This document shows positions 15,187 to 28,039 of a stretch of 64,000 nt of DNA, one piece after another. Below the pieces are notes generated by a model. It was not told where the DNA came from and did no database searches. It saw only the letters and a program-made list of their open reading frames with translations. Made by a program: the position numbers and the translations under genes. The DNA comes from a virus: positions 1 to 64,000 of the IMG/VR virus record IMGVR_UViG_3300049259_000288. One strand, given 5' to 3'. Each line of letters opens with the position of its first letter. Position 1 is the stretch's first letter.

Positions 15187-15262
15187 TGGCTCGGGGAGCA
15201 CGGTTCGAACGTGCATCGTCCTGATCCAAAGTCAGGCGTCTTTCCGCTTAGACCACCCCCGA
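15187..15262 (-). tRNA. tRNA-Gln(TTG)
   Basis: 76 nt with encoded CCA. Acceptor TCGGGGG/TCCCCGA; anticodon stem CCTGA/TCAGG around loop CTTTGGA; T arm GCACG-TTCGAAC-CGTGC. Reads CAA (and CAG by wobble). It is isolated, 0.6 kb beyond the endonuclease genes that end the main tRNA array. Confidence 0.9.
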
Positions 15263-15277
15263 ACGAAGAACCAGCAA

Positions 15278-15299
15278 GGGGGTCCCTTTCGGGACCCCC
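15278..15299. terminator. Perfect hairpin between the sigma operon and the endonuclease genes
   Basis: GGGGGTCCC-TTTC-GGGACCCCC is a nine-base-pair stem with a four-base loop at the junction of two converging transcription units. There is no strong U run on either side, so termination is inferred from position and stability. Confidence 0.65.
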
Positions 15300-15351
15300 A
15301 GGCCGGGATAGAGCACCGCCTCGCGGCGGGGGCTTCGTAGCGCAGGTGATC

Positions 15352-15900
15352 CTACGCGACGGCGCCGGCGACGTTGTCGATGGGGAGGTACGGGGCCCAC
15401 GTCGGGTTGGCCTCGCGGATCCCCATGAGCAACCAGTACGTGCCCGTCGGGACGTAGGGCTTGAACGCGAGAACCCAGTCCATCTCGGCCAGCGTGTGAG
15501 CGGCCTTCCGCGCGTTGCACGGACGGCACGCGGCCACGACGTTGGTCCAGGTGTGCCGGCCACCCCGCGACCGCGGGTGAACATGGTCGACGGTGGTGCC
15601 GCGCCGCGGCGCCCACTGCCGTTCCCCGCGGTGGTTCTCGGGGATGCAGTAGGCGCACCGGTGCTCGTCACGCCGCAGGACCGCGGCGTTCGACAGCGCG
15701 ATGCGCGCGGTGTACGGCACCTGCACGTACTTCCGCAGGCGGATCACCTCGGGCACGGGCACCGAGGCGCGTGCTGAGTGGTAGGCGTCGTCACCGGCCT
15801 CGAGCACCTCGGCCTTCTCGGCCATGACGAGCACGACGGCCCGGCGGGTGTCGATGATCCGAAGCGGGGTGTAGTCAGCATTGATCAGCAGGGCCGCCAT
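15352..15900 (-). CDS. HNH endonuclease
   Basis: 182 aa. The start is fixed by AAGGAAAGGAGA before ATG. The N-terminal 75 residues (LLINADYTPLRIIDTRRAVV, AEKAEVLEA) match the McrA-like HNH type. The nuclease core is RCAYCIPENHRG..., TVDHVHPRSRGG, WTNVVAACRPCN, with H at VDH, N in NVVA and two CxxC pairs holding structural zinc. Free-standing HNH genes in phages are often homing endonucleases or packaging partners. It lies downstream of the tRNA array and shares its direction. Confidence 0.9.
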   Translation of the reverse strand: MAALLINADYTPLRIIDTRRAVVLVMAEKAEVLEAGDDAYHSARASVPVPEVIRLRKYVQVPYTARIALSNAAVLRRDEHRCAYCIPENHRGERQWAPRRGTTVDHVHPRSRGGRHTWTNVVAACRPCNARKAAHTLAEMDWVLAFKPYVPTGTYWLLMGIREANPTWAPYLPIDNVAGAVA

Positions 15901-15916
15901 CTGCGTCTCCTTTCCT

Positions 15917-16648
15917 TCATCGTTGGCGCGCCCTTGTTTGCGCATCCAGTCGTTGTTGTCGTTGGACCGGGTCGGCCCAAACCTTCCGCTGTGCCTCGGC
16001 CATGCGCGCGCGGGTCTCCTCGCTCACGACCCGCGCGGTGTTCATCTGCGCGATGGCTTCCCGCTGCGTCTCGGTGCGCTCGTAGCGCCCGACGCCAGGC
16101 GAGGGTCCGTTCCTGGCGTAGGTTGCACGCAGGGACGCAGCGATCTTGGACCGGGTCTCATCTGAGAGCCGTCGCCCGGTGTTCGACCTGGCGATCTTCG
16201 CGATGACTTCGGGCGCTCGTGGGCGGTCTTTGAGCGTCGCGCGTATCTTTTCGCGAACCACCGTGGGCATGGGCCCCTTGGGCTTGCCCCTTTGCCAGGC
16301 TGACATCTTCGCCTTTGTTGACACGGAGTGGTGATGGCCTGTCAGACCTTCGCCGCCATCCGTGTGATTCGTGAGTCGGGCTACAGCGCGGTAGTGCTGG
16401 ATCCAGTGGCGTTCGCGAGCGGCCCAGTCCTCGCGACCGTCTACGACCTCCACGAGCTGGATGATCGGCGGCGAGTTGTCTGCGAGACATCTTCTGATCC
16501 ACCGATCACGATGGGTGGAGGTTCGACCGGATCGCGCAGACCAAAGGTGGTAGGCGAGCCGGTCGCCCAGTGGCTTGACGGTCTTTCCGACGTACCGGAT
16601 TTCGTTGGAACGCTGGTCGATGAGCACATAGATGGACGTGGGTTGCAC
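15917..16648 (-). CDS. GIY-YIG homing endonuclease with NUMOD3 repeats
   Basis: 243 aa, GTG start after GGAGAT. N-terminal GIY-YIG domain: IYVLIDQRSNEIRYVGKTVK, conserved Arg in GDRLAYH and Glu in ARERHWIQHYRA. Several short DNA-binding NUMOD3-like repeats follow (SVSTKAKMS, VIAKIARSNTGRRLSDETR, VSEETRARMAEAQRK). Free-standing enzymes of this type mobilise themselves between phages. It sits at the end of the tRNA array with only about 35 bases between it and tRNA-Gln(CTG). Confidence 0.9.
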   Translation of the reverse strand: MQPTSIYVLIDQRSNEIRYVGKTVKPLGDRLAYHLWSARSGRTSTHRDRWIRRCLADNSPPIIQLVEVVDGREDWAARERHWIQHYRAVARLTNHTDGGEGLTGHHHSVSTKAKMSAWQRGKPKGPMPTVVREKIRATLKDRPRAPEVIAKIARSNTGRRLSDETRSKIAASLRATYARNGPSPGVGRYERTETQREAIAQMNTARVVSEETRARMAEAQRKVWADPVQRQQRLDAQTRARQR

Positions 16649-16683
16649 GATCTCCGACAGTAAACGGAGGGTGTGACGGAAAG

Positions 16684-16755
16684 CTCCGGGACGAGGACTT
16701 GAACCCCGTATTCGAGGTCCAGAACCTCGCGTGTTGCCGATTACACCATCCCGGA
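16684..16755 (-). tRNA. tRNA-Gln(CTG)
   Basis: Acceptor TCCGGGA/TCCCGGA, loop TTCTGGA in stem CGAGG/CCTCG, T arm loop TTCAAGT. No encoded CCA. Reads CAG. Last gene of the array in its direction of transcription. Confidence 0.88.
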
Positions 16756-16762
16756 ATGATGG

Positions 16763-16837
16763 TGGTCGGGAACCGGGGAGTCGAACCCCGCGCCTTCTGC
16801 CCCCCAGGCAGACGTGCTACCGCTGCACCAGTTCCCG
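16763..16837 (-). tRNA. tRNA-Pro(GGG)
   Basis: CCA encoded. Acceptor CGGGAAC/GTTCCCG; loop CTGGGGG in stem TCTGC/GCAGA; T loop TTCGACT. Reads CCC and CCT. Confidence 0.9.
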
Positions 16838-16844
16838 TTGTCGA

Positions 16845-16919
16845 TGGTCAGGGTGACACGAGTCGAACGTGCATCCTCCTGCCCCCAAAGCAGGCGCGCG
16901 GCCTTTGCGCTACACCCTG
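16845..16919 (-). tRNA. tRNA-Pro(TGG)
   Basis: CCA encoded. Acceptor CAGGGTG/CACCCTG; loop TTTGGGG in stem CCTGC/GCAGG. Reads CCA and, by wobble, CCG. Confidence 0.9.
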
Positions 16920-16924
16920 TTGCG

Positions 16925-16999
16925 TCTAGCTGGGGAGATTTGAACTCCCGACCTCCTCGTCCCGAACGAGGCGCGCTGACCAAGCTGCGCTACAGCTAG
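16925..16999 (-). tRNA. tRNA-Pro(CGG)
   Basis: No encoded CCA. Acceptor CTAGCTG/CAGCTAG; loop TTCGGGA in stem CCTCG/CGAGG. Reads CCG. With the two neighbours it gives a full proline set. Confidence 0.9.
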
Positions 17000-17000
17000 T

Positions 17001-17075
17001 TGGCGTCCCCGGCACGACTCGAACGTGCGCGCTGCGATTTAGAAGATCGCGGCTCTGCCGCTGAGCTACGGGGAC
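17001..17075 (-). tRNA. tRNA-Arg(TCT)
   Basis: CCA encoded. Acceptor GTCCCCG/CGGGGAC; loop CTTCTAA in stem GCGAT/ATCGC. Reads AGA. Confidence 0.9.
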
Positions 17076-17080
17076 TCGCG

Positions 17081-17153
17081 AGCCGGTGACAGGAGTCGAA
17101 CCTGCGCGTTCCGCATTACGAGGGCGGTGCTCAGCCACCCGAGCATCACCGGC
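17081..17153 (-). tRNA. tRNA-Thr(CGT)
   Basis: No encoded CCA. Acceptor GCCGGTG/CACCGGC; loop CTCGTAA; the anticodon stem CCGCC/TGCGG has a C.T mismatch next to the loop. Reads ACG. Confidence 0.8.
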
Positions 17154-17172
17154 GAGAACTACTAAATCGCGA

Positions 17173-17194
17173 AGAACTAGTAGAGAACTAGTAG
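17173..17194. repeat. Tandem 11-mer AGAACTAGTAG x2
   Basis: Two perfect head-to-tail copies of AGAACTAGTAG, with a diverged third (GAGAACTACTA) at 17154-17164, lie between tRNA-Thr(CGT) and tRNA-Leu(CAA). The AT-rich content contrasts with the GC-rich surroundings. Confidence 0.85.
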
Positions 17195-17198
17195 TTGG

Positions 17199-17274
17199 TG
17201 GTACCCGCGGCGCGAGTCGAACGCGCAAACACCTGATCTTGAGTCAGGCGGCTCGCCGGATGGCCTACGCGGGC
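17199..17274 (-). tRNA. tRNA-Leu(CAA), short variable region
   Basis: CCA encoded. Acceptor GCCCGCG/CGCGGGT; loop CTCAAGA in stem CCTGA/TCAGG; discriminator A. Only about five bases separate the anticodon and T stems, so the long variable arm normal for bacterial tRNA-Leu is absent. Reads TTG. Confidence 0.85.
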
Positions 17275-17279
17275 TTGCG

Positions 17280-17354
17280 TGTCCACGACAGGCGTCGAAC
17301 CTGCACGTTACGACGGTCTGAACGTCGCTCCTCTGCCAGTTGGGATACGTGGAC
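17280..17354 (-). tRNA. tRNA-Leu(CAG), short variable region
   Basis: No encoded CCA. Acceptor GTCCACG/CGTGGAC; loop TTCAGAC in stem CGACG/CGTCG; discriminator A. About six variable-region bases (TAACGT) instead of a long arm. Reads CTG. Confidence 0.85.
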
Positions 17355-17355
17355 G

Positions 17356-17432
17356 TGGTACTCGGGATGGGATTTGAACCCACACGCACCACGCTCTCGA
17401 CGTGGCGGCTTTGCCGATTTGCCTACCCGAGC
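17356..17432 (-). tRNA. tRNA-Leu(GAG), short variable region, C33
   Basis: CCA encoded. Acceptor GCTCGGG/CCCGAGT; stem CCACG/CGTGG is perfect around loop TCGAGAG, placing C rather than T at position 33. No long variable arm; discriminator A. Reads CTC and CTT. Confidence 0.82.
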
Positions 17433-17439
17433 TTGGTGC

Positions 17440-17513
17440 TGGTGGACCCGACGGGAGTTGAACCCGCAATCGTCTCCTTGCAGGGGAGGTGCTAGCCGTT
17501 CAGCTTCGAGCCC
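17440..17513 (-). tRNA. tRNA-Ala(TGC), C33
   Basis: CCA encoded. Acceptor GGGCTCG/CGGGTCC contains the G3.T70 pair, the main alanine identity element. Loop CCTGCAA has C33; stem CCTCC/GGAGA has a C27.A43 mismatch. Reading the loop one base later would give GCA (Cys), but that stem pairs worse and lacks Cys identity bases. Reads GCA and, by wobble, GCG. Confidence 0.8.
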
Positions 17514-17523
17514 GAGATGGTTG

Positions 17524-17604
17524 GTGCGGCTGCCCACGCTCGTCAGCGCGAAGCATCACGGCAGGGGCTCTCCCGATGCGCTCGGGCGCCTTTCTCAGCC
17601 GCAC
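17524..17604 (-). other. tRNA-like element without a canonical T loop
   Basis: An 81-base segment between two alanine tRNAs is closed by a perfect nine-base stem (GTGCGGCTG/CAGCCGCAC). Inside, on the minus strand, lies CCCG-AGCGCAT-CGGG, a four-pair stem with a seven-base loop that would show anticodon CGC and the same position-43 A as the alanine tRNAs. The D arm is too short and no TTCGA-type T loop exists. It could be a decayed tRNA-Ala(CGC) or another structured RNA. Confidence 0.5.
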
Positions 17605-17607
17605 CAG

Positions 17608-17679
17608 TGGAGCCACGGAGAATCGAACTCCGACCTTCGCCATGCCATGGCGGCGTGCTGCCACTATCACTATGGCCCC
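17608..17679 (-). tRNA. tRNA-Ala(GGC)
   Basis: No encoded CCA. Acceptor GGGGCCA/TGGCTCC has the G3.T70 alanine identity pair. Loop ATGGCAT in stem CCGCC/GGCGA, with the same C27.A43 mismatch as tRNA-Ala(TGC). Reads GCC and GCT. Confidence 0.85.
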
Positions 17680-17689
17680 GTAGAACGTG

Positions 17690-17732
17690 CTCGGCCCGGC
17701 TACGGATCCCTTGGGATTCCGACCGGGCCGAG
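17690..17732. other. Long near-perfect stem-loop within the tRNA array
   Basis: CTCGGCCCGG pairs with CCGGGCCGAG (ten pairs), and inside it CGGATCCC pairs with GGGATTCCG around a TT loop with one bulged T. It lies between tRNA-Ala(GGC) and the initiator tRNA. It may mark a processing or termination point, but no U run is present. Confidence 0.7.
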
Positions 17733-17748
17733 ACGCTTCTCTCGCAAA

Positions 17749-17827
17749 TGGTGGCAGGGAGAGGATTTGAACCTCCGACCTCCGGGTTATGGGCCCGGCG
17801 AGCACATCCAGGCTGCTCCACCCTGCG
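17749..17827 (-). tRNA. Initiator tRNA-fMet(CAT), C33
   Basis: CCA encoded. Initiator hallmarks: no pair between positions 1 and 72 (C opposite C), three G:C pairs at the end of the anticodon stem (GGG/CCC), and an A11:T24 pair in the D stem. The loop is CCCATAA, giving C33 where bacterial initiators have T33. Phage-encoded initiator tRNAs are uncommon. Confidence 0.88.
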
Positions 17828-17872
17828 TCGCTCTTGAGACGATACGCCTTGGCGCCGGCGTCGTCCAGTGTT

Positions 17873-17946
17873 TGGTACCGGTGCTCGGAGTCGAACCGAA
17901 GTCCGCGCGGGTATGGGCCGCACGTCGCACGCCTGTCATCACCGGC
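17873..17946 (-). tRNA. tRNA with anticodon CAT (elongator Met or Ile2), C33
   Basis: CCA encoded. Acceptor GCCGGTG/CACCGGT; loop CCCATAC in stem TGCGG/CCGCG, with C33. It lacks the initiator features, so it is either elongator methionine or an isoleucine tRNA whose C34 becomes lysidine to read ATA; the sequence alone does not settle which. Confidence 0.8.
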
Positions 17947-17947
17947 A

Positions 17948-17973
17948 TGAACCTTCTCGTCGATGTCGCCGAT
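17948..17973 (+). promoter_or_regulatory. Putative phage-sigma promoter, site A
   Basis: TGAA-N16-GCCGAT, followed after nine more bases by GTGAAGCTG, the start of a 40-codon membrane ORF. It reads against the tRNA array. Spacing is identical to the five other sites. Confidence 0.65.
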
Positions 17974-17982
17974 CGACGGGAT

Positions 17983-18105
17983 GTGAAGCTGAGCTCGCGT
18001 GCGGTCACCAACATCCTGACGATCATCGTGCTGATCGTGGCGCTGCTGCCGCTCGAGGTGTGGCTCCTCGACAACATCTTTCACTTCGGATACAGCGGCG
18101 ACTAG
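17983..18105 (+). CDS. Small single-pass membrane protein inside the tRNA array
   Basis: 40 aa, GTG start just after promoter site A, begins VKLSSRAVTNILTI. One strongly hydrophobic helix (about residues 9-28, TNILTIIVLIVALLPLEVWL) and a short polar tail. Codons are GC-biased like the real genes. An upstream in-frame ATG at 17947 overlaps the promoter's TGAA block and is unlikely. It is the only plus-strand gene in the array and is transcribed opposite to the tRNAs. Function unknown; a superinfection or membrane role is only a guess. Confidence 0.65.
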   Translation: MKLSSRAVTNILTIIVLIVALLPLEVWLLDNIFHFGYSGD

Positions 18106-18106
18106 A

Positions 18107-18180
18107 TGGGGTGACCGAGCGGAATTGAACCGCCATCACCAGGGCCACAACCTGGCGCTCTACCATTGAGCTACGGCCAC
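18107..18180 (-). tRNA. tRNA-His(GTG)
   Basis: CCA encoded. Acceptor GTGGCCG/CGGTCAC with discriminator C; loop TTGTGGC in stem CCAGG/CCTGG. The base before position 1 is T, so the extra G(-1) usual for histidine tRNA is not encoded. Reads CAC and CAT. Confidence 0.87.
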
Positions 18181-18182
18181 AG

Positions 18183-18255
18183 TAGGCGTGGGGGGAGTCG
18201 AACCCCCGCAACACAGCGTGTGGAGCTGCTGCTCTGGCCACTGAGCTACACGCCC
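18183..18255 (-). tRNA. tRNA-Val(CAC), C33
   Basis: No encoded CCA. Acceptor GGGCGTG/CACGCCT; stem GCAGC/GCTGT around loop TCCACAC gives C33. Discriminator A. Reads GTG. Confidence 0.82.
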
Positions 18256-18264
18256 GAGAACTGC

Positions 18265-18341
18265 TGGTGCCGGCAGCGGGGATCGAACCCGCGATGCTGT
18301 CCGCTTAAAAGGCGGCTGCCTTGCCACTCGGCCACACCGGC
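18265..18341 (-). tRNA. tRNA-Lys(TTT)
   Basis: CCA encoded. Acceptor GCCGGTG/TGCCGGC with wobble pairs at the base; loop CTTTTAA in stem GCCGC/GCGGA. Reads AAA and AAG. Confidence 0.83.
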
Positions 18342-18349
18342 ATCGTTTC

Positions 18350-18425
18350 TGGTACGCCATCAGGGAGTCGAACCCCGGACCCTCTCCTCATCAGGGAGAT
18401 GCTCTCACCACTGAGCTAATGGCGC
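18350..18425 (-). tRNA. tRNA-Ile(GAT)
   Basis: CCA encoded. Acceptor GCGCCAT/ATGGCGT; loop CTGATGA in stem TCTCC/GGAGA. Reads ATC and ATT. Confidence 0.9.
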
Positions 18426-18426
18426 T

Positions 18427-18502
18427 TGGTAGTCGCGACTGGATTTGAACCAGCGACCTCCTGCGTGTCGAGCAGGCGCTCTAGCCACTGAGCTACGCGA
18501 CC
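18427..18502 (-). tRNA. tRNA-Val(GAC), C33
   Basis: CCA encoded. Acceptor GGTCGCG/CGCGACT; stem CCTGC/GCAGG around loop TCGACAC gives C33. Reads GTC and GTT. Confidence 0.84.
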
Positions 18503-18503
18503 A

Positions 18504-18580
18504 TGGTGGAACCGACTGGCGTCGAACCAGCACCCTTCCGGGCTTCAACCGGACGCTCTCCCTGCCTGAGCTTCGGTTCC
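18504..18580 (-). tRNA. tRNA-Phe(GAA)
   Basis: CCA encoded. Acceptor GGAACCG/CGGTTCC; loop TTGAAGC in stem TCCGG/CCGGA. Reads TTC and TTT. Confidence 0.9.
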
Positions 18581-18584
18581 ATGA

Positions 18585-18636
18585 GGCGCTTGCCCCAGAG
18601 TCGCACTGGGTGAAACGGGCTCGAAGCCCAAGCGCC
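18585..18636 (-). other. Mini tRNA-like three-way junction RNA
   Basis: 52 bases between tRNA-Phe and tRNA-Thr. A perfect eight-pair outer stem (GGCGCTTG/CAAGCGCC) encloses GGGCT-TCG-AGCCC and CCCAG-TGCGACT-CTGGG. The second arm has the size of a T arm, and its loop TGCGACT differs by one base from the TTCGACT loop of several neighbours. It has no anticodon arm, so it is a deletion derivative of a tRNA or a separate small structured RNA. Confidence 0.55.
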
Positions 18637-18638
18637 AG

Positions 18639-18712
18639 AGCCGGTGACAGGAATCGAACCCGCGTCCTTCTGCTTACAGGGCAGGTGCTCAACCAACGTG
18701 AGCTACACCGGC
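18639..18712 (-). tRNA. tRNA-Thr(TGT), C33
   Basis: No encoded CCA. Acceptor GCCGGTG/CACCGGC, identical to tRNA-Thr(CGT); loop CCTGTAA (C33) in stem CCTGC/GCAGA with a C27.A43 mismatch. Reads ACA. Confidence 0.82.
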
Positions 18713-18716
18713 GAGA

Positions 18717-18791
18717 TGGAGCGGCTGACGCGAATCGAACGCGCATCACATGCTTGGAAGGCACGAGCTCTAGCCATTGAGCTACAACCGC
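18717..18791 (-). tRNA. tRNA-Gly(TCC)
   Basis: CCA encoded. Acceptor GCGGTTG/CAGCCGC, discriminator T; loop CTTCCAA in stem CGTGC/GCATG. Reads GGA and GGG. Confidence 0.88.
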
Positions 18792-18792
18792 A

Positions 18793-18869
18793 TGGAGTGT
18801 GTGACCGGGTTCGAACCGGCGACCTCGACGTTGGCAACGTCGCGCTCTGACCAACTGAGCTACACACAC
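18793..18869 (-). tRNA. tRNA-Gly(GCC)
   Basis: CCA encoded. Acceptor GTGTGTG/CACACAC, discriminator T; loop TTGCCAA in stem CGACG/CGTCG. Reads GGC and GGT. Confidence 0.9.
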
Positions 18870-18873
18870 GCGA

Positions 18874-18949
18874 TGGAGAGCGTGACCGGAATCGAACCGG
18901 TGAATGGACTGGGTTGCAACCAGCCGCCTTCCCACTTGGCTACACGCCC
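18874..18949 (-). tRNA. tRNA-Cys(GCA)
   Basis: CCA encoded. Acceptor GGGCGTG/CACGCTC, discriminator T as expected for cysteine identity; loop TTGCAAC in stem GCTGG/CCAGT. Reads TGC and TGT. Confidence 0.9.
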
Positions 18950-18953
18950 ACGG

Positions 18954-19028
18954 CCCCGAGACGAGGACTCGAACCCCGCTCCTTCCGCGTTAACAGCGCG
19001 GCGTCGTCGCCCGGACGACTCTCTCGGG
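18954..19028 (-). tRNA. tRNA-Asn(GTT)
   Basis: No encoded CCA. Acceptor CCCGAGA/TCTCGGG, discriminator G; loop CTGTTAA in stem CCGCG/CGCGG. Reads AAC and AAT. Confidence 0.9.
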
Positions 19029-19029
19029 T

Positions 19030-19105
19030 TGGTAGTCCGTACGAGATTCGAACTCGTGATCTTCTGGTTGAGAACCAGATGTGTTCACCCCTACACCAAC
19101 GGACC
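19030..19105 (-). tRNA. tRNA-Glu(CTC)
   Basis: CCA encoded. Acceptor GGTCCGT/ACGGACT; loop TTCTCAA in stem TCTGG/CCAGA. Reads GAG. The 100 bases between it and tRNA-Glu(TTC) hold no gene that I can support. Confidence 0.9.
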
Positions 19106-19206
19106 ATGTGCGCCGTTGACGACGTGCGCCGGCGCTGCGCTTGCCATCGAAGAGCACGGCCCTGTGCGGCCCGGAACCGTGTGGCATCTCGTCGATCGTC
19201 GCCGAG

Positions 19207-19279
19207 CACTCCGTACCGGATTCGAACCGGTGCCGTGACCTTGAAAGGGTCGTGTCCTTGGCCGCTAGACGAACGGAGC
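19207..19279 (-). tRNA. tRNA-Glu(TTC)
   Basis: No encoded CCA. Acceptor GCTCCGT/ACGGAGT; loop CTTTCAA in stem CGACC/GGTCA. Reads GAA and GAG. Confidence 0.88.
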
Positions 19280-19280
19280 A

Positions 19281-19366
19281 TGGCGGAAGGTGGAGGAATT
19301 GAACCCCTGCGCTTGCACGCACCACTGGCTTCGAACCAGCTCGCCTCACCGTCGGCGGCACCTTCC
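19281..19366 (-). tRNA. tRNA-Ser(CGA)
   Basis: 86 nt with CCA. Acceptor GGAAGGT/ACCTTCC, discriminator G; loop TTCGAAG in stem GCTGG/CCAGT; long variable arm of class II. Reads TCG. Confidence 0.9.
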
Positions 19367-19371
19367 TCGAG

Positions 19372-19459
19372 CGGAGCGAGTGAGATTCGAACTCACGGCG
19401 CATTGCTGCGCGCACGTCTTTCCAGAACGGCCCGTTCAGCCAGACTCCGGCATCGCTCC
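19372..19459 (-). tRNA. tRNA-Ser(GGA)
   Basis: No encoded CCA. Acceptor GGAGCGA/TCGCTCC, discriminator G; loop CTGGAAA; long variable arm (GCGCGCAGCAATGCGC). Reads TCC and TCT. Confidence 0.88.
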
Positions 19460-19463
19460 GAGA

Positions 19464-19553
19464 TGGCGGATCGTGGAGGGCTCGAACCCCCGCCAGTTCC
19501 TCACTGACGCCCCGCGCTTCAAACGCAGTTCGCCCCCACGGGCGGCACGATCC
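19464..19553 (-). tRNA. tRNA-Ser(TGA)
   Basis: 90 nt with CCA. Acceptor GGATCGT/ACGATCC, discriminator G; loop TTTGAAG in stem CTGCG/CGCGG; long variable arm. Reads TCA and TCG. Confidence 0.9.
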
Positions 19554-19557
19554 TCGA

Positions 19558-19648
19558 TGGCGGAGACGGTGGGATTTGAACCCACGGCGCATCACTGCGC
19601 GCACGACTTAGCAGGTCGGCCCGATGAACCAGACTCTGGCACGTCTCC
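19558..19648 (-). tRNA. tRNA-Ser(GCT)
   Basis: 91 nt with CCA. Acceptor GGAGACG/CGTCTCC, discriminator G; loop CTGCTAA in stem CCGAC/GTCGT; long variable arm similar to tRNA-Ser(GGA). Reads AGC and AGT. Confidence 0.9.
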
Positions 19649-19652
19649 GAGA

Positions 19653-19728
19653 TGGCGTCCTCGGCGCGACTCGAACGCGCGACCTGCGCGTTAGGAGCGC
19701 GCTGCTCTCGCCACTGAGCTACGAGGAC
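19653..19728 (-). tRNA. tRNA-Arg(CCT)
   Basis: CCA encoded. Acceptor GTCCTCG/CGAGGAC; loop CTCCTAA in stem GCGCG/CGCGC. Reads AGG. Confidence 0.91.
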
Positions 19729-19729
19729 G

Positions 19730-19806
19730 TGGAGCCGAAGTCGGGAATCGAACCCGAGGCCTCACCCGTACCAGGGGTGCGCTCTACCAAACTGAGCTAC
19801 GTCGGC
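19730..19806 (-). tRNA. tRNA-Thr(GGT)
   Basis: CCA encoded. Acceptor GCCGACG/CTTCGGC with one C.T mismatch at pair 6-67; loop CTGGTAC in stem CACCC/GGGTG. Reads ACC and ACT. Confidence 0.88.
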
Positions 19807-19807
19807 G

Positions 19808-19882
19808 TGGCGCCCACGACAGGACTCGAACCTGCAGCCTCGACCTCCGGAGGGTCGCGCTCTCCCATTGAGCTACGTGAGC
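19808..19882 (-). tRNA. tRNA-Arg(CCG)
   Basis: CCA encoded. Acceptor GCTCACG/CGTGGGC; loop CTCCGGA in stem CGACC/GGTCG. Reads CGG. Confidence 0.9.
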
Positions 19883-19909
19883 TACGTGCTACGTGAGCAT
19901 CGTGCATTG

Positions 19910-19981
19910 CGTCCCAGAGAGGGGTCGAACCTCCAACCTACGGCTCCGTAGACCGTCGCTCTTCCATTGAGCTACCGGGAC
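19910..19981 (-). tRNA. tRNA-Arg(ACG)
   Basis: No encoded CCA. Acceptor GTCCCGG/CTGGGAC; loop CTACGGA in stem ACGGT/GCCGT. The only tRNA here with A34, expected to become inosine by host TadA and then read CGT, CGC and CGA. Confidence 0.9.
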
Positions 19982-20020
19982 TCGCGGCGGGCGCTCTGCC
20001 ACAGAGCTTCGCCGTCCTCG

Positions 20021-20038
20021 GATGCTGCGCGCAGCATC
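20021..20038. repeat. 18-base perfect palindrome
   Basis: GATGCTGCGCGCAGCATC is perfectly self-complementary, in the spacer between tRNA-Arg(ACG) and a tRNA remnant. A second small hairpin, GCTCTG-CCA-CAGAGC, lies just left of it. Possible protein-binding site or cruciform; no function shown. Confidence 0.75.
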
Positions 20039-20045
20039 GTCATCG

Positions 20046-20070
20046 AACGGCGGCAGGAATTGAACCTGCG
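20046..20070 (-). pseudogene. Orphan T-arm fragment of a tRNA
   Basis: On the minus strand GCAGG-TTCAATT-CCTGC is a perfect five-pair T arm with a standard T loop, followed by a short 3' acceptor-like end. No 5' half exists, because tRNA-Asp begins 13 bases away. It looks like the 3' remnant of a deleted tRNA gene. Confidence 0.6.
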
Positions 20071-20082
20071 CCTCCCGCCTCG

Positions 20083-20158
20083 CGCGGCTGACGGGATTTG
20101 AACCCGCGATCTCTTCCTTGACAGGGAAGTGAGGACGACCAGACTCCTCCACAGCTGC
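20083..20158 (-). tRNA. tRNA-Asp(GTC)
   Basis: No encoded CCA. Acceptor GCAGCTG/CAGCCGC with one A.C mismatch at 3-70, discriminator G; loop CTGTCAA in stem CTTCC/GGAAG. Reads GAC and GAT. Confidence 0.85.
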
Positions 20159-20163
20159 TTGGG

Positions 20164-20238
20164 TGCGCGATCAGGGACTCGAACCCTGCCTATGTCGGTT
20201 TAAGAGACCGCTGGTCCAGCCATCTGACCAAATCGCGC
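20164..20238 (-). tRNA. tRNA-Lys(CTT)
   Basis: No exact CCA (CCC follows the discriminator A). Acceptor GCGCGAT/ATCGCGC; loop CTCTTAA in stem GCGGT/ACCGA. Reads AAG. Confidence 0.88.
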
Positions 20239-20248
20239 GTGAGGTGCG

Positions 20249-20325
20249 TGGAGTGGGCGCGGCGTGTGTGCCTGTTCTTCGATCGGTTTGGAACCCGGCC
20301 AGGCCCTCTGTCACGAGAGCCCACT
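20249..20325 (-). pseudogene. Decayed tRNA-Trp-like element with CCA end
   Basis: A tRNA-sized segment whose ends pair (AGTGGGC/GCCCACT) and which ends in CCA. Counting from its 5' end, TTCCAAA falls at positions 32-38, which would show the Trp anticodon CCA, but only two or three pairs of the anticodon stem remain and there is no T loop. An intact tRNA-Trp follows 0.2 kb away, so this is probably a decaying duplicate. Confidence 0.5.
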
Positions 20326-20387
20326 TCCGTCGGTGACACGAACCGGGTGCGTTCTCGCACGCCTCCATGTCGATCTCCACGCACGAG

Positions 20388-20467
20388 TGGGCCCGGAGGG
20401 AATCGAACCCCCTGTGTCATTCGACGTCTGGGTTACAACCAGGTGCGCCCCATGGCGCGTCGGACCC
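20388..20467 (-). tRNA. tRNA-Tyr(GTA)
   Basis: No encoded CCA. Acceptor GGGTCCG/CGGGCCC, discriminator A; loop TTGTAAC in stem CCTGG/CCAGA; long variable arm (class II, as in bacterial tRNA-Tyr). Reads TAC and TAT. Confidence 0.88.
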
Positions 20468-20471
20468 GTGT

Positions 20472-20493
20472 GGCGAGGGTTGGCGCCCTCGCC
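20472..20493. other. Eight-base-pair hairpin in the tRNA array
   Basis: GGCGAGGG-TTGGCG-CCCTCGCC between tRNA-Tyr and tRNA-Trp. Stable stem without a U run; possibly a processing or pausing element. Confidence 0.65.
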
Positions 20494-20536
20494 CTATCTC
20501 GGCGTCTATGCGATTGTCAACGAGCTGGTACTCAAG

Positions 20537-20608
20537 CAGGGGCGGGAGGGATCGAACCTCCGTTGCCGGTTTTGGAGACCGGAGTCCGTTCCACTGGACC
20601 ACGCCCCC
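20537..20608 (-). tRNA. tRNA-Trp(CCA)
   Basis: No encoded CCA. Acceptor GGGGGCG/CGCCCCT, discriminator G as expected for tryptophan; loop CTCCAAA in stem CCGGT/ACCGG. Reads TGG. First tRNA of the array in its direction of transcription. Confidence 0.9.
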
Positions 20609-23745: not shown

Positions 23746-23967
23746 ATGGCAGAAGGCGACCGCCCGTTCGCGGGGACCCAGATCGGCAGCGACGGCAAGC
23801 GGTACGACACCGGCGATCAGCCGACGACCCGCGAGACGCCCAAGACCACCTACCAGGTGTTCGGCACGCCGTCGCCCGGCGACATCGTCTGGTGGAACCC
23901 CGACACCGAGCGCCTCGAGTTCACGGACTTCGACACGGCGTCGGCGTACGTCCCGTCGAGCAGCTAG
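23746..23967 (+). CDS. Small hypothetical protein, 73 aa
   Basis: ATG after GTGGAGGAC, downstream of promoter site B. Polar and Thr/Pro-rich first half, then GDIVWWNPDTERLEFTDF. Its TAG stop overlaps the TAG stop of the converging glycosyltransferase gene. It could be a small virion protein, given the promoter type, but that is inference. Confidence 0.72.
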   Translation: MAEGDRPFAGTQIGSDGKRYDTGDQPTTRETPKTTYQVFGTPSPGDIVWWNPDTERLEFTDFDTASAYVPSSS

Positions 23968-24752
23968 CGAGTCGCTGGGTCGTACACCAGGGGCTCACCC
24001 TTGAGCCCCGCCTCGGGGTCGGGCGCGAAGAAGTGCTCGCGGAACCAGTCTGCGCACGCCTCGTCGCCGCGCTCTTCGGCGATGCCGCCGTACATGCGCC
24101 AGTGGGCGCCGGCTGAGTACGGCAGGTCCGTGGCGTCGTAGGCCGCCTTGCCGTTGATGGCCTTGCGCACGAACTGGGTGGCCGAGCGGTACGGGAAGTG
24201 GCGCACCTCGAGCACGCCGTCGATGCGCGTGGGCACCATGTTCGTGTAGTGGGCGCCGTGGTTGCCCTGCTCGATGACGAGGTCCTCGCGCCAGCGGCAC
24301 GCCACCTTGGGAAGCCCGCCCGGCGTGACGCGACGCCATCCCATCCGGAGGAACGGCGAGGTCTCCTCGTCGTCGTCGAGGCCGGTGGCGACGTGGTCGT
24401 AGAGCGTGGCCGTGGCGATCCAGGTGTCGTCGGGGAGTGTGGCCAGTGCTTCGGCGACGCGCCGGTGTCCGTAGGCGAACCAGAGCTCATCGGCGTCGAA
24501 GGGCACGATCCAGTCGGCGCCGTACTGCACGACCGCCGCCTGTGCCAGGGCCGTCATCTTCTCGGACTGCCGGTAGGCCGGGTCGGGGTCCTCGAGCACG
24601 TCCACGCCGAGCTCGTCGAGGATGGCGCGCGTGCCATCGGTGGAGAGGTTGTCGGCGACGAGGACATGGTCGACCTGGTGCATCATCCAGGTCACCGAGT
24701 CGCGGATGACGTCCTCCTCGTCCTTCACCATGGAGATCGCGACCGTGGTCAT
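23964..24752 (-). CDS. Glycosyltransferase, GT2-like with DADE motif
   Basis: 262 aa. MVKDEEDVIRDSV at the start, NLSTDGT at about 35-41 and FDADEL at about 85-90 are typical of the Glyco_transf_2_4 type, with DADE as the metal-binding DxD. ATG overlaps the methyltransferase stop. It belongs to a leftward operon of four glycosyltransferases and one methyltransferase, probably used to decorate virion proteins, as reported for glycosylated actinophage particles. Host cell-wall modification is an alternative. Confidence 0.85.
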   Translation of the reverse strand: MTTVAISMVKDEEDVIRDSVTWMMHQVDHVLVADNLSTDGTRAILDELGVDVLEDPDPAYRQSEKMTALAQAAVVQYGADWIVPFDADELWFAYGHRRVAEALATLPDDTWIATATLYDHVATGLDDDEETSPFLRMGWRRVTPGGLPKVACRWREDLVIEQGNHGAHYTNMVPTRIDGVLEVRHFPYRSATQFVRKAINGKAAYDATDLPYSAGAHWRMYGGIAEERGDEACADWFREHFFAPDPEAGLKGEPLVYDPATR

Positions 24753-25321
24753 GGCTTGGTCGCCAGGAAGATCGTCTCGACGCCGTACTGGGTCTGTGGG
24801 CTGTCGATCGTGGTGTGCGCCACGACGGCGCCAGCGGTTGCAAAGGCGTTCTCGATGTAGTCGGTCGGCAGCGACAGGTCGGGGACGCCAGGGTCTTCGT
24901 TCCACGCGATCTCATGGTCGTGCCACGCCGCGGGGAACTCGTCGCTCTGGTGCATCGGGGTGAAGATGATCAGCGCCATGCGCTCCCGGAACGACTCGAT
25001 GGCGTTGGAGAGGATCTCGCGCCAGCGGTAGTCGTGCTCGAGGACGTGGCGGATGAAGATCCCAGCCACGTCGCTGTGGTAAGTGGTGAGATCGGCGACC
25101 TCGTCGGCGAACGGCGAGTGCGAGCCGTCGATGCCGCGGTACCGCTCGGGCTCGACGAGCGTGCGCAACCAGCCCTTTCCGCACCCCCAGTCCTCGATCA
25201 CGCTGCAACCGGCGAGGTGCTCGGCGCCGAGCTTGTAGGTGTCGGAGTCGCCGTAGGGCTGGGGCCCATCCTCCTCGCTCATCAGCGAGTACCAGCGGTC
25301 CCACTTCCCGACGTTGCTCAT
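24749..25321 (-). CDS. SAM-dependent methyltransferase-like protein
   Basis: 190 aa. Residues about 41-50 (VIEDWGCGKGW) form the glycine-rich SAM-binding motif I, followed by GIDGS (motif II region) and IFIRHVLEHDYRW, a pattern seen in class I small-molecule methyltransferases. The stop overlaps the glycosyltransferase start. In this operon it may methylate a sugar or a virion glycan. Confidence 0.8.
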   Translation of the reverse strand: MSNVGKWDRWYSLMSEEDGPQPYGDSDTYKLGAEHLAGCSVIEDWGCGKGWLRTLVEPERYRGIDGSHSPFADEVADLTTYHSDVAGIFIRHVLEHDYRWREILSNAIESFRERMALIIFTPMHQSDEFPAAWHDHEIAWNEDPGVPDLSLPTDYIENAFATAGAVVAHTTIDSPQTQYGVETIFLATKP

Positions 25322-25998
25322 CAGTAGCCCGTCCCTGCTCGTTCGTCGCCGATGTGCAGCACCTTCGGGGGATCGAACTTCTTGCCCCAGAAGGCGAAGG
25401 GGCAGCCGCGTCGGTGCGTGAGCAGTCGGTGCGTGAACGCGCCCTCGCTGTGCTCGCCATCAGGCCAGCCTTCGCGCAGCAGGGCGCGATGGTAGACGGA
25501 CGGGTTCGTGGTGAAGAACCGGCGGTGTGCTGTCCACCACGACTCGCCGTCGCTCATCTGGAAGAAGTCCTGCGGGTTGGCCTCGATGATGCCGCCGGCG
25601 GCCCGCTCGATGTCGTTCCACGGCTGGCGCTTGAGGGCGACCTGGACGAGCTCACGCTGGCGGATCAGCAGGCGCTCCATGGCCACGACGTTGATGTCCT
25701 CGGTGAACACGAAGTCGTCCTCAAGGTGGAAGATGAAGTGCGAGTCGCTCGAGGCGAGGTAGGCCCAGGCTGAGCGGATGGCGCCGCCGAAGCCCGAGCG
25801 GCCGGGTGTCGAGATGATCGTGAACTGGGGGAACTGCTCGGCGAGCCACGCCCGGTAGTCCGGGTCGCCGGAGTCGTCGTGGATGATGCGCTCGGTGAAC
25901 GGCAACGCCTCGGCGCGGAGGTGCACGAGCGCCGAGTGCAGCGTCCGGCTGATGCAGTCGCGACGGCCGTCGGTCATCACCAGCAGCGTCGTGCTCAT
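25321..25998 (-). CDS. Glycosyltransferase
   Basis: 225 aa. A GT-A fold is suggested by FTERIIHDDSGDPDYR (about 34-49), PGRSGFGGAIRSAW and HLEDDFVF (about 91-98), the last being the acidic metal-binding segment. C-terminal half has FWGKKFDPPKVLHIGD. Genes on both sides overlap it. Confidence 0.8.
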   Translation of the reverse strand: MSTTLLVMTDGRRDCISRTLHSALVHLRAEALPFTERIIHDDSGDPDYRAWLAEQFPQFTIISTPGRSGFGGAIRSAWAYLASSDSHFIFHLEDDFVFTEDINVVAMERLLIRQRELVQVALKRQPWNDIERAAGGIIEANPQDFFQMSDGESWWTAHRRFFTTNPSVYHRALLREGWPDGEHSEGAFTHRLLTHRRGCPFAFWGKKFDPPKVLHIGDERAGTGY

Positions 25999-26567
25999 CC
26001 CGCGGTCTCCCTCCCCGTGCGGCGCGCGTCGGTGTGCTTCGTGCGGTAGGTCCAGGTCACCTTCGGGACCACCTCGAAGGCGCAGCCCAGCCGGTACATC
26101 TGCTTCCAGAGCTCCCAGTCCTCGTACGGCTTGTCGAGCGGGAAGCCGCCGGCGCTGAGGACGGCGGAGCGCCGTGCCAGCACGGTGATGGGGAAGATGC
26201 CGTGCCGGCGCAGGTCGTTCCAGGCGAAGGGGCGGTTGTAGTAGCCCCCGCAGCACGCGATCTCCGGGAGCGGCGGGCCCTCGAAGCGGCAGTGCGGGAT
26301 CACCACGTCGACGCGGTTGTCCGCTGCGTGCGCGGCCAGCGTCTCGATGTGGTCGGTGTCCAGATGGTCGTCGTCGTCGAGGAAGGCGATCCAGGAGGTG
26401 GTAGCCGCCTCGACCAGCTGGTTGCGCGCCTCAGCGACCCCAACGCTGTCGTCCACGCAGATGAGGTGCGCGGCTGCCTGGGTCTGGGCGCCGACGGAGG
26501 CGACTGCCTCGGCGAGCAGGGACGCGCGTCGAGGCAGCGACGCGGTGATGACGGTGACGTCGATCAT
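25995..26567 (-). CDS. Glycosyltransferase family 2
   Basis: 190 aa. Canonical GT2 features: VTVITASLPRRASLLAEAV at the N-terminus, GVAEARNQL at about 43-51, FLDDDDHLD (about 62-70, DxD motif) and YEDWELWKQM near residue 150, the acceptor-side ED motif. The gene overlaps both neighbours. Confidence 0.9.
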   Translation of the reverse strand: MIDVTVITASLPRRASLLAEAVASVGAQTQAAAHLICVDDSVGVAEARNQLVEAATTSWIAFLDDDDHLDTDHIETLAAHAADNRVDVVIPHCRFEGPPLPEIACCGGYYNRPFAWNDLRRHGIFPITVLARRSAVLSAGGFPLDKPYEDWELWKQMYRLGCAFEVVPKVTWTYRTKHTDARRTGRETAG

Positions 26568-27256
26568 GGCTCGATGGGCTCGAGGTGACGGGTGAAGGCG
26601 GCCAGACGCCGCTTCCGGATGTTCCAGGTGCGCGCGTCCATCCGCCACTGGGCCTTGCCCAGCTCGTAGGTCGGATCGCTCTCGGCCTTCTTCCAGGAGG
26701 GATGCACGTGCTCGACGATCGAGTCGGCGGCGAAGGCCCATGCCCGTCGGCGGATGGCGGTCTGGACCATCTCGACGTCACAGAAGTTGTGGTCGTATCC
26801 CTCGTGGTAGATCACGCCTGGCTGGTCGTAGGTGCCGTGCTCGAGGGCGTAGTCGCGTGTGACGATCGAGTGGGTGGCGTGGCGGCCAGCCACGACGTCG
26901 GGGTTGCCGAGGTCGTTCGTACCGACGACGCCGATGCCGTCGGCGAGCTTCGCCATGGCGGCCTCTAGCCAGCCGGGGGAGAACACGAGGTCGTCGGCGC
27001 CGGTGAAGATCAGCGGCTCCGTCGAGGCGCGCATCCCGGCGTTGATCTTGCGGGCGTAGTCGCCGGGCTGGCGGTCCGCCGAGGGCGTGATGTAGTCGGC
27101 GCCGGCGCGCGCCAGGGCTTCGATCTCAGGCCTGTCGGTGCCGGTGGCGACGAAGAGGAGCCGGAAGCCCGTCGTCGCCCTGGAGACGCTCTCGATGAAC
27201 GGAACGATCCGTTCTGGCCGGTTCAGCACCGGGACGACGATGCAGACGTTGGCCAC
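26564..27256 (-). CDS. Glycosyltransferase family 2-like
   Basis: 230 aa, GTG start. VCIVVPVLNRPERIVPFIES is a GT2 N-terminus; FTGADDLVF (about 84-92) supplies the acidic motif. First gene of the leftward sugar-modification operon and divergent from another glycosyltransferase gene across 54 bases. Confidence 0.85.
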   Translation of the reverse strand: MANVCIVVPVLNRPERIVPFIESVSRATTGFRLLFVATGTDRPEIEALARAGADYITPSADRQPGDYARKINAGMRASTEPLIFTGADDLVFSPGWLEAAMAKLADGIGVVGTNDLGNPDVVAGRHATHSIVTRDYALEHGTYDQPGVIYHEGYDHNFCDVEMVQTAIRRRAWAFAADSIVEHVHPSWKKAESDPTYELGKAQWRMDARTWNIRKRRLAAFTRHLEPIEP

Positions 27257-27310
27257 GGGCCGAGGGTATGGATGCGCTGGCCGTCGTAGTGGGATGCCTA
27301 CTGTGCGGCG

Positions 27311-28039
27311 ATGGCGGTGTCGGTGCTCATCCCCTTCCGCCCCACCGATGTGCACCGCCAGCGCGCGCTCGACTGGGTGCTGGGGCAGTTCGAGCGCCAG
27401 TACCCCCGTTTCCAGGTGATCGTCCAGGAAAGCGAGCGAGGTCCATGGTCCAAGGGTGAGCTCGTCGAGCGGGCGCTGCGCCGCGCCACGGGCGATGTGA
27501 TCGTGGTCGCCGACGGCGACGTCTGGACCGCCGGACTCGAGCGGGCAGTGCAGCTGGTGGCCGACGGGGACTTCCACTGGGCGCTCCCGCAGCTCTGGGT
27601 CTACCGGCTGACCGAGGCGGCCACCGCCCGGGTCTACGGCGGCGCCGGCCTGTCGATCAACGCCGAGACCGTGCGAGTCCACAAGGCTGTGCGCGGCGGC
27701 GGCTGCGTCGTGCTGGACCGACCCACCATCGAGCGCATCCCGATGGATCCCCGCTTCGTGGGCTGGGGAGGAGAAGACATCGCCTGGGGCAAGGCGCTGT
27801 CGGTGCTCGCCGGCGACTGTTGGCGAGCTCGATCGCCGCTGTATCACCTCTGGCACCCGCCGGCGCTCCGGGAAGACGAGATCGCAGGCAGCGCCGAGAA
27901 CGCTGCCCTCCTCAAGCGGTACACGATGGCCAAGGCGCGCTCGAGCTGGCCGGAGAAGATGCAGGAGGTCATCGACGAGGTGCTGGCTGGCCATCCGCCG
28001 ACTGAGCTTGTCCAGCGAGCATCATCGGAACGTCACTGA
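27311..28039 (+). CDS. Glycosyltransferase with GWGGED motif
   Basis: 242 aa. VSVLIPFRPTDVHRQRAL and VVADGDVW (DGD at about 68-70) form the nucleotide-sugar half; GWGGEDIAWG (about 151-160) matches the WGxED motif of the galactosyltransferase C-terminal domain. TACTGT ends six bases before the ATG, so this gene may also start without a leader. It faces away from the other four glycosyltransferase genes. Confidence 0.87.
   Translation: MAVSVLIPFRPTDVHRQRALDWVLGQFERQYPRFQVIVQESERGPWSKGELVERALRRATGDVIVVADGDVWTAGLERAVQLVADGDFHWALPQLWVYRLTEAATARVYGGAGLSINAETVRVHKAVRGGGCVVLDRPTIERIPMDPRFVGWGGEDIAWGKALSVLAGDCWRARSPLYHLWHPPALREDEIAGSAENAALLKRYTMAKARSSWPEKMQEVIDEVLAGHPPTELVQRASSERH

Follow-up and report, generated by a model that had tools for sequence, protein, structure and literature searches.

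Why phages carry transfer RNA (tRNA) genes is a long-open question, and it is the question raised by the tRNA array considered here, which occupies positions 15,190-20,608 on the minus strand of a 64,000-nucleotide stretch of viral DNA (hereafter, the window). The window covers the first 64 kb of an IMG/VR virus record (IMGVR_UViG_3300049259_000288) that is 76,960 bp long and classed as linear, and the array comprises 39 tRNA genes, with each type present in a single copy. We hold, with moderate confidence, that the array serves as a near-complete decoding set, with one copy per tRNA, which sustains phage translation when host tRNAs are depleted or cleaved. One gene per kind, covering 99.86% of codons, argues for replacement of host tRNAs and against a supplement of a few tRNAs, and the loops altered at positions 33 and 37 yield testable predictions on which host nucleases the phage tRNAs should resist. 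Near-complete tRNA sets are already known in a few other phages; this one ranks with the most complete and includes odd anticodon loops and a tRNA with reversed halves.

Composition of the tRNA array

ARAGORN identified 37 tRNA genes, every one of them on the minus strand. The Rfam family RF00005 added tRNA-Ala(TGC) (17443-17513; 46.2 bits), which ARAGORN had missed, and a cloverleaf fit contributed the 39th gene, a second CAT tRNA (17876-17946) whose acceptor stem has 7 bp and whose anticodon and T arms are normal. This tRNA is a weak call, with a poor D stem, and is reported neither by Rfam, even at E=1, nor by ARAGORN. The Rfam gathering score is reached by 35 of the 39 tRNAs; Ser-CGA, at 25.6 bits, falls under the cut-off, and Rfam does not list Ser-TGA, Leu-CAG or the second CAT tRNA, of which ARAGORN found the first two. 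Given that 35 of the 39 genes clear the Rfam score and that almost all fold into good cloverleaves, we consider the set to be under selection. The array covers all 20 amino acids and includes an initiator (17752-17827), bearing out a preliminary description of the window that had proposed, from the letters alone, 39 tRNA genes with precisely this coverage. Its isotype counts (four Ser, four Arg, three Thr, three Leu and three Pro) are also correct, and the widespread failure in covariance-model scoring that it had named as damaging to the proposal did not occur.

The main block (16683-20608) holds 38 tRNAs in 3.9 kb, or about 9.7 per kb. Both in number (39 genes) and in density, the array falls within the definition of a tRNA array unit, which asks for 20 or more tRNA genes and a density of no less than 2 per kb (PMC5966550). 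Random draws from 45 types would be expected to produce 26 distinct types, and the probability of all 39 being distinct is 6e-12. We judge it a genuine phage tRNA array, under selection and one of the most complete known. Being single-copy and nearly complete, the set fits replacing rather than topping up host tRNAs. Fifteen of its genes do not encode CCA. No sigma-70-type promoter was found for the array, terminator-like sites occur at chance level, and the search for a transfer-messenger RNA (tmRNA) in the window returned only sub-threshold Rfam noise. The features of the locus, identified by ARAGORN, Rfam and cloverleaf fit unless otherwise stated, are as follows:

15190-15262, minus: tRNA-Gln(TTG); two endonuclease genes lie between it and the main block
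15352-15900, minus: HNH endonuclease adjoining the array (PHROG 16726, E=1.8e-30; Pfam HNH_5/HNH)
15917-16648, minus: GIY-YIG/NUMOD3 homing endonuclease adjoining the array (PHROG 314, E=1.9e-14; Pfam GIY-YIG, NUMOD3)
16684-16755, minus: tRNA-Gln(CTG)
16766-16837, minus: tRNA-Pro(GGG)
16848-16919, minus: tRNA-Pro(TGG)
16925-16999, minus: tRNA-Pro(CGG)
17004-17075, minus: tRNA-Arg(TCT), closest to Arg(CCT) of the same phage
17081-17153, minus: tRNA-Thr(CGT)
17202-17274, minus: tRNA-Leu(CAA), short variable loop
17280-17354, minus: tRNA-Leu(CAG), short variable loop, A37 against actinobacterial G37 (ARAGORN; absent from Rfam list)
17359-17432, minus: tRNA-Leu(GAG), short variable loop, C33, A37
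17443-17513, minus: tRNA-Ala(TGC), C33 (Rfam, 46.2 bits, and cloverleaf fit, without ARAGORN)
17608-17679, minus: tRNA-Ala(GGC)
17752-17827, minus: initiator tRNA-fMet(CAT), anticodon stem GGG/CCC, C33
17876-17946, minus: second CAT tRNA, probably elongator Met, C33, weak D stem (cloverleaf fit and identity comparison)
18110-18180, minus: tRNA-His(GTG)
18183-18255, minus: tRNA-Val(CAC), C33
18268-18341, minus: tRNA-Lys(TTT)
18353-18425, minus: tRNA-Ile(GAT), G37
18430-18502, minus: tRNA-Val(GAC), C33, usual in actinobacterial cells too
18507-18580, minus: tRNA-Phe(GAA)
18639-18712, minus: tRNA-Thr(TGT), C33
18720-18791, minus: tRNA-Gly(TCC)
18796-18869, minus: tRNA-Gly(GCC)
18877-18949, minus: tRNA-Cys(GCA)
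18954-19028, minus: tRNA-Asn(GTT)
19033-19105, minus: tRNA-Glu(CTC)
19207-19279, minus: tRNA-Glu(TTC)
19284-19366, minus: tRNA-Ser(CGA) (ARAGORN; Rfam 25.6 bits, sub-cut-off)
19372-19459, minus: tRNA-Ser(GGA)
19467-19553, minus: tRNA-Ser(TGA) (ARAGORN and cloverleaf fit)
19561-19648, minus: tRNA-Ser(GCT)
19656-19728, minus: tRNA-Arg(CCT)
19733-19806, minus: tRNA-Thr(GGT)
19811-19882, minus: tRNA-Arg(CCG)
19910-19981, minus: tRNA-Arg(ACG)
19982-20082, minus: circularly permuted tRNA element (cloverleaf-like fold and permuted-tRNA detector)
20083-20158, minus: tRNA-Asp(GTC)
20164-20238, minus: tRNA-Lys(CTT)
20388-20467, minus: tRNA-Tyr(GTA)
20537-20608, minus: tRNA-Trp(CCA)

Four spacers of the array (17514-17606, 17680-17748, 18581-18637 and 20239-20386, minus strand) have strong closed folds (z -2.1 to -5.5), and none of them matched an Rfam family.

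Codon coverage and the missing NTA readers

Codons were counted in 100 well-supported genes, called with a simple codon model and totaling 21,625 codons, of which the phage set could read 21,595 (99.86%). Ordinary wobble leaves TTA, CTA, GTA and ATA without a reader, in agreement with the preliminary description; for ATA the agreement is probable, since the second CAT tRNA is nearer to actinobacterial elongator Met (acceptor GGCGGTG/CACCGCT) than to Ile2 (GGGCCGG/CCGGCCC). NTA codons account for 30 of the 21,625 (TTA 0, ATA 1, CTA 9, GTA 20) and for 10 of the 9,811 codons in the block of structural and lysis genes, so that the late genes do not make the heavy use of NTA that would have contradicted the earlier proposal. 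Our reference cells are three actinobacterial genomes (the phylum of a Nocardioides bin) with complete tRNA sets, a small control set that may differ from the phage host. Compared with these, the phage repertoire covers 39 of about 45 types and adds no type of its own; it lacks Leu-TAA, Leu-TAG, Val-TAC, Ile2, Gly-CCC and Ala-CGC. Of the six, Gly-CCC and Ala-CGC are redundant, since U34 tRNAs read GGG and GCG.

This coverage bears on an alternative that we regard as possible though unlikely, namely that the tRNAs compensate for codon usage and raise supply for phage translation in lytic growth, with no involvement of defense. As compensation would have it, the commonest codons are covered and the absent readers serve the rarest ones, although a supplement for rare codons could do without tRNAs for common codons, and their presence also speaks for replacement. 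Across the sampled arrays, several of them partly read, UAN anticodons are lacking at a GC content of 61-68% (the window, Rctr197k, Stubby, ScoobyDoobyDoo, CharlieB, StAugustine and Ccr10) and present at 41-59% (DSS3_MAL1, A3Wally, Starbow and GRLPWR), the exception being contig G158, which at 67% GC has TAG and TAT. Because high-GC arrays mostly lack NTA readers and low-GC arrays have them, the gap in the phage set mainly reflects codon use, a trend that again favors compensation. Rarity is nonetheless not the whole cause, since AAA and AGA, with nine uses each, keep exact readers even though they are as rare as CTA and rarer than GTA. Single copies, moreover, are poorly suited to boosting common codons, and compensation does not predict the excess of anticodon-loop change described below. 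The missing NTA readers were also considered as a signal of defense, a notion dropped in favor of codon use because NTA codons are nearly absent from the phage genes. As for the exceptional contig, it is a 103-kb viral contig with a dense array of 33 tRNAs at 65% GC (L507, G158:74300-78000) that includes Leu-TAG and Ile-TAT, and it gave no match to the capsid of the window phage.

Divergence of the anticodon loops

At loop positions 32, 33, 37 and 38 the phage differs from all three cell references at 30 of 156 sites (19%), against 4-6% when each reference cell is compared with the other two. In the T loop, a similarly conserved control, divergence rises only from 0.09-0.11 in cells to 0.14-0.18 in the phage (1.5- to 1.8-fold), and the anticodon loops have thus diverged beyond what the remainder of the tRNA would lead one to expect. 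Other phage arrays show a loop divergence (15-27%) similar to that of the window array. Twenty of the 39 phage loops match no loop of the three actinobacterial genomes, which may not represent the host; among cell anticodon loops, 35-37 of 43-44 match another reference cell.

Six tRNAs (Leu-GAG, Ala-TGC, Thr-TGT, Val-CAC, fMet and the second Met) have C33 where the cells have U33, and position 33 is altered in 6 of 39 tRNAs here against 9 of 247 across ten other phage arrays (Fisher p=0.009). The C33 of Thr-TGT probably arose within the lineage of the window phage, since the Thr-TGT of the M. smegmatis phage StAugustine, 91% identical in its body, has U33. In Leu-CAG and Leu-GAG, A37 stands where cells have G37, which destroys the GG at positions 36-37 that VapC11 needs (PMC6459853). 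These changes fit, without proving, a replacement set resistant to host tRNA-cutting enzymes.

As a general mark of phages, C33 was rejected on account of actinobacterial Val-GAC, where TCGACAC (C33) occurs in 8 of 12, and of initiators with C33 in several cell lineages (Leuconostocaceae, Phycisphaerae, Erysipelotrichaceae and archaea). It is unusual relative to actinobacterial cells only for the six tRNAs listed above, and C33 alone is no proof of evasion, since actinobacterial Val-GAC has it naturally. The cellular tRNA-Val(GAC) of actinobacterial loci L294-L314 is often of this type, a natural exception to U33, and C33 initiator tRNAs (GGGCCCATAACCC) occur in more than 119 viral contigs (L010-L128). 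Short Leu tRNAs were likewise rejected as a phage-only trait for CAA, given that cells have CAA and TAA forms of 75-77 nt; Leu CAG and GAG are short in phages only, among the sequences compared. Altered loops were over-represented among tRNAs named as tRNase targets (p=0.04, from one hand-picked list of eight), a result not relied on because Trp-CCA and Pro-GGG, sometimes named as targets, are unaltered.

Proposed replacement of host tRNAs

For the array to replace host tRNAs, its genes would probably be co-transcribed from the minus strand and the transcript cut into tRNAs by host RNase P and 3'-end enzymes. The host would supply CCA where it is not encoded (15 genes), and its synthetases would presumably charge the products. 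The selecting pressure would be host tRNA cleavage, and not faster translation, by analogy with the cases of T5, T6, retrons and PrrC, where this has been shown by experiment.

Several observations weigh against this interpretation. Avoidance of Ser NGA anticodons, a mark of nuclease-insensitive phage tRNAs seen in C1 mycobacteriophages, which avoid Ser-GGA, Ser-TGA and Ser-CGA (PMC10264068), is not found here, as all three are present. Gln-CTG retains the GG that VapC11 needs, and the loops of Lys-TTT, Trp-CCA and Pro-GGG are identical to actinobacterial loops. Foreign ancestry of the tRNAs may partly lie behind the loop excess, since the tRNA bodies have diverged as well (0.37 against 0.18-0.25) and the Phe loop TTGAAGC is also found in other cells. 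Finally, a search with 54 of the roughly 120 called proteins yielded no T4-type RNA ligase, CCA-adding enzyme, peptidyl-tRNA hydrolase or tRNA synthetase. The preliminary suggestion that the phage replaces host tRNAs is therefore sustained in part: the non-redundant, near-complete set and the loop divergence support it, while the retained Ser tRNAs, the cell-like loops and the GG of Gln-CTG run counter to simple nuclease avoidance.

Assembly of the set

The HNH (15352-15900) and GIY-YIG (15917-16648) endonuclease genes interrupt the array, and one may ask whether such homing endonucleases spread and amplified the tRNA genes while the phage gained little. In mycobacterial tRNA arrays no coding gene is more widespread than HNH (PMC5966550), and in T6 the GIY-YIG enzyme SegB brings about tRNA gene amplification (PMC13096335). 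Within the window, Ser-GGA and Ser-GCT share 80% identity over 98 nt, flank included, and Arg-TCT and Arg-CCT are closer to one another than to any compared cell or phage tRNA; both pairs look like in-phage duplicates with a switched anticodon, and the Ser pair in particular accords with selfish accumulation. Amplification, however, would leave duplicates, of which the array has none, and the Rfam scores and cloverleaves point to selection on the set, for which reasons we give this explanation little credence.

Other tRNAs are closest to varied sources. The Leu CAG/GAG/CAA trio (74-77 nt) is homologous to that of phage Stubby (blastn, ~69% over 240 nt, E=5e-18), and the Val-GAC, fMet and Gly tRNAs have their nearest relatives in actinobacterial cells. 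Such varied affinities, some of them to phages (Stubby for the Leu trio, StAugustine for Thr-TGT), would also suit a set that makes the phage independent of how tRNA supply or modification varies between several hosts, or of host tRNA breakdown after takeover, as would near-complete decoding. Host synthetases and modification enzymes would still be required, and we judge independence of this sort improbable as the main function.

A permuted tRNA element

A 101-nt element (19982-20082, minus strand) lies flush between Asp-GTC and Arg-ACG and has the halves of a tRNA in reversed order: the 3' half (20078-20045), a spacer with an 18-nt perfect hairpin, and the 5' half (20016-19987). The halves, both orphan, pair in the acceptor (7/7, one G-U), in the anticodon stem (5/5) and in T and D arms, and the cloverleaf-like fold has a minimum free energy of -54.7 (z -2.90). 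Random halves of different tRNAs gave acceptor and anticodon pairing as good in 956 of 400,000 trials. If joined, the ends would form the 7-nt loop GCGACGA, in which C33-GAC corresponds to a Val anticodon. Duplication followed by deletion would produce the permuted arrangement. No homologue of the element was found, and a single search of the open-access literature returned no phage described as having a permuted tRNA gene. A second, unrelated permuted tRNA, Leu-like, was observed in two IMG/VR contigs that carry tRNA arrays (L252:11101-11187, minus; L256:6992-7078, plus), and a pattern scan found no further copies.

A bolder reading combines this element with the loop changes into a remodelled, self-sufficient set, in which U33, elsewhere almost invariant, would have been replaced by C in several elongators and the initiator to escape U33-reading nucleases and the permuted tRNA would become functional through ligation at the anticodon loop; we consider it very unlikely.

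The phage and its host

The window encodes, among others, a capsid protein, a sigma factor, a holin, glycosyltransferases and a HerA/terminase-like ATPase. The nearest known capsid (MK557849, mangrove soil) is 49% identical, a DUF5131 protein shares 55% identity with Gordonia phages and a methylase 42% with Streptomyces phage ZL12, and the capsid-protease domain matches mainly actinophages. In tblastn searches with the terminase/HerA-like and capsid proteins, matches were limited to MW202482, MK557849 and Bacillus phages; megablast with 10 kb of window DNA gave no match, and a search of IMG/VR by packaging ATPase and capsid revealed no close relatives. The phage is a divergent virus of bacteria whose protein matches are distant, and those to Gordonia, Streptomyces and other actinophages make an actinobacterial host likely.

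Some further genes deserve mention. The ATPase (4814-6538) is a terminase by PHROGs, yet a HerA helicase by Pfam. A row of glycosyltransferase-like genes beside the capsid genes (23964-28039) perhaps serves DNA or virion glycosylation. In a 664-aa protein (30006-32000), a region resembling capsid maturation proteases is fused to a C-terminal 2H phosphoesterase ('2'-5' RNA ligase') domain, and this RNA-acting domain may be carried in the virion. Elsewhere, a 238-aa protein with a Clp N-terminal domain (L009:6234-6947) is a possible ClpC/ClpA adaptor or mimic.

Comparison with known systems

The closest parallels are the arrays of cluster C mycobacteriophages (Bixzunavirus and Myrnavirus; Stubby, CharlieB and ScoobyDoobyDoo), which are likewise high in GC, have up to about 36 tRNAs, lack UAN anticodons in the stretches read, and share the Leu CAG/GAG/CAA trio with short variable loops; Val-CAC of CharlieB also has C33. 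In contrast to cluster C, the window phage has 39 genes in one 5.4-kb stretch and no tmRNA or peptidyl-tRNA hydrolase gene seen in the window, and it is unrelated by the proteins searched, capsid and packaging kinship being absent. Unlike C1, which avoids NGA anticodons, it has all four Ser types. The Microbacterium phage A3Wally resembles it in having 46 ARAGORN tRNAs with 38 distinct anticodons and a capsid maturation protease domain related at 42%, but its array extends over 20 kb with duplicates, has a GC content of 58%, includes TAC and TAG, and neighbors RNA ligase and peptidyl-tRNA hydrolase genes. Virus Rctr197k and Caulobacter phage Ccr10 share high GC, dense arrays without UAN anticodons and a Val-GAC with C33, and differ in having 31 and 24 distinct types by ARAGORN, respectively, with no C33 in Thr-TGT, Ala-TGC or Leu-GAG.

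The tRNA-rich regions of T5 and T6 are also phage tRNAs, those of T6 adjoining a GIY-YIG endonuclease (PMC11555353, PMC13096335), and phage tRNAs have been found to defeat retron-Eco7 and PrrC (PMC11555353) as well as Septu (PMC13096335). There, the dosage of one tRNA has been shown to counter tRNA-cutting defenses, whereas the window holds one copy of nearly every tRNA. A survey of viral tRNA clusters reported 15-37 tRNAs per cluster at 2-10 per kb, reading 5-34 codons, with all 20 isotypes in 8 of 228 (PMC6409571); the 39 genes and 38 anticodons of the window slightly exceed these published one-cluster maxima.

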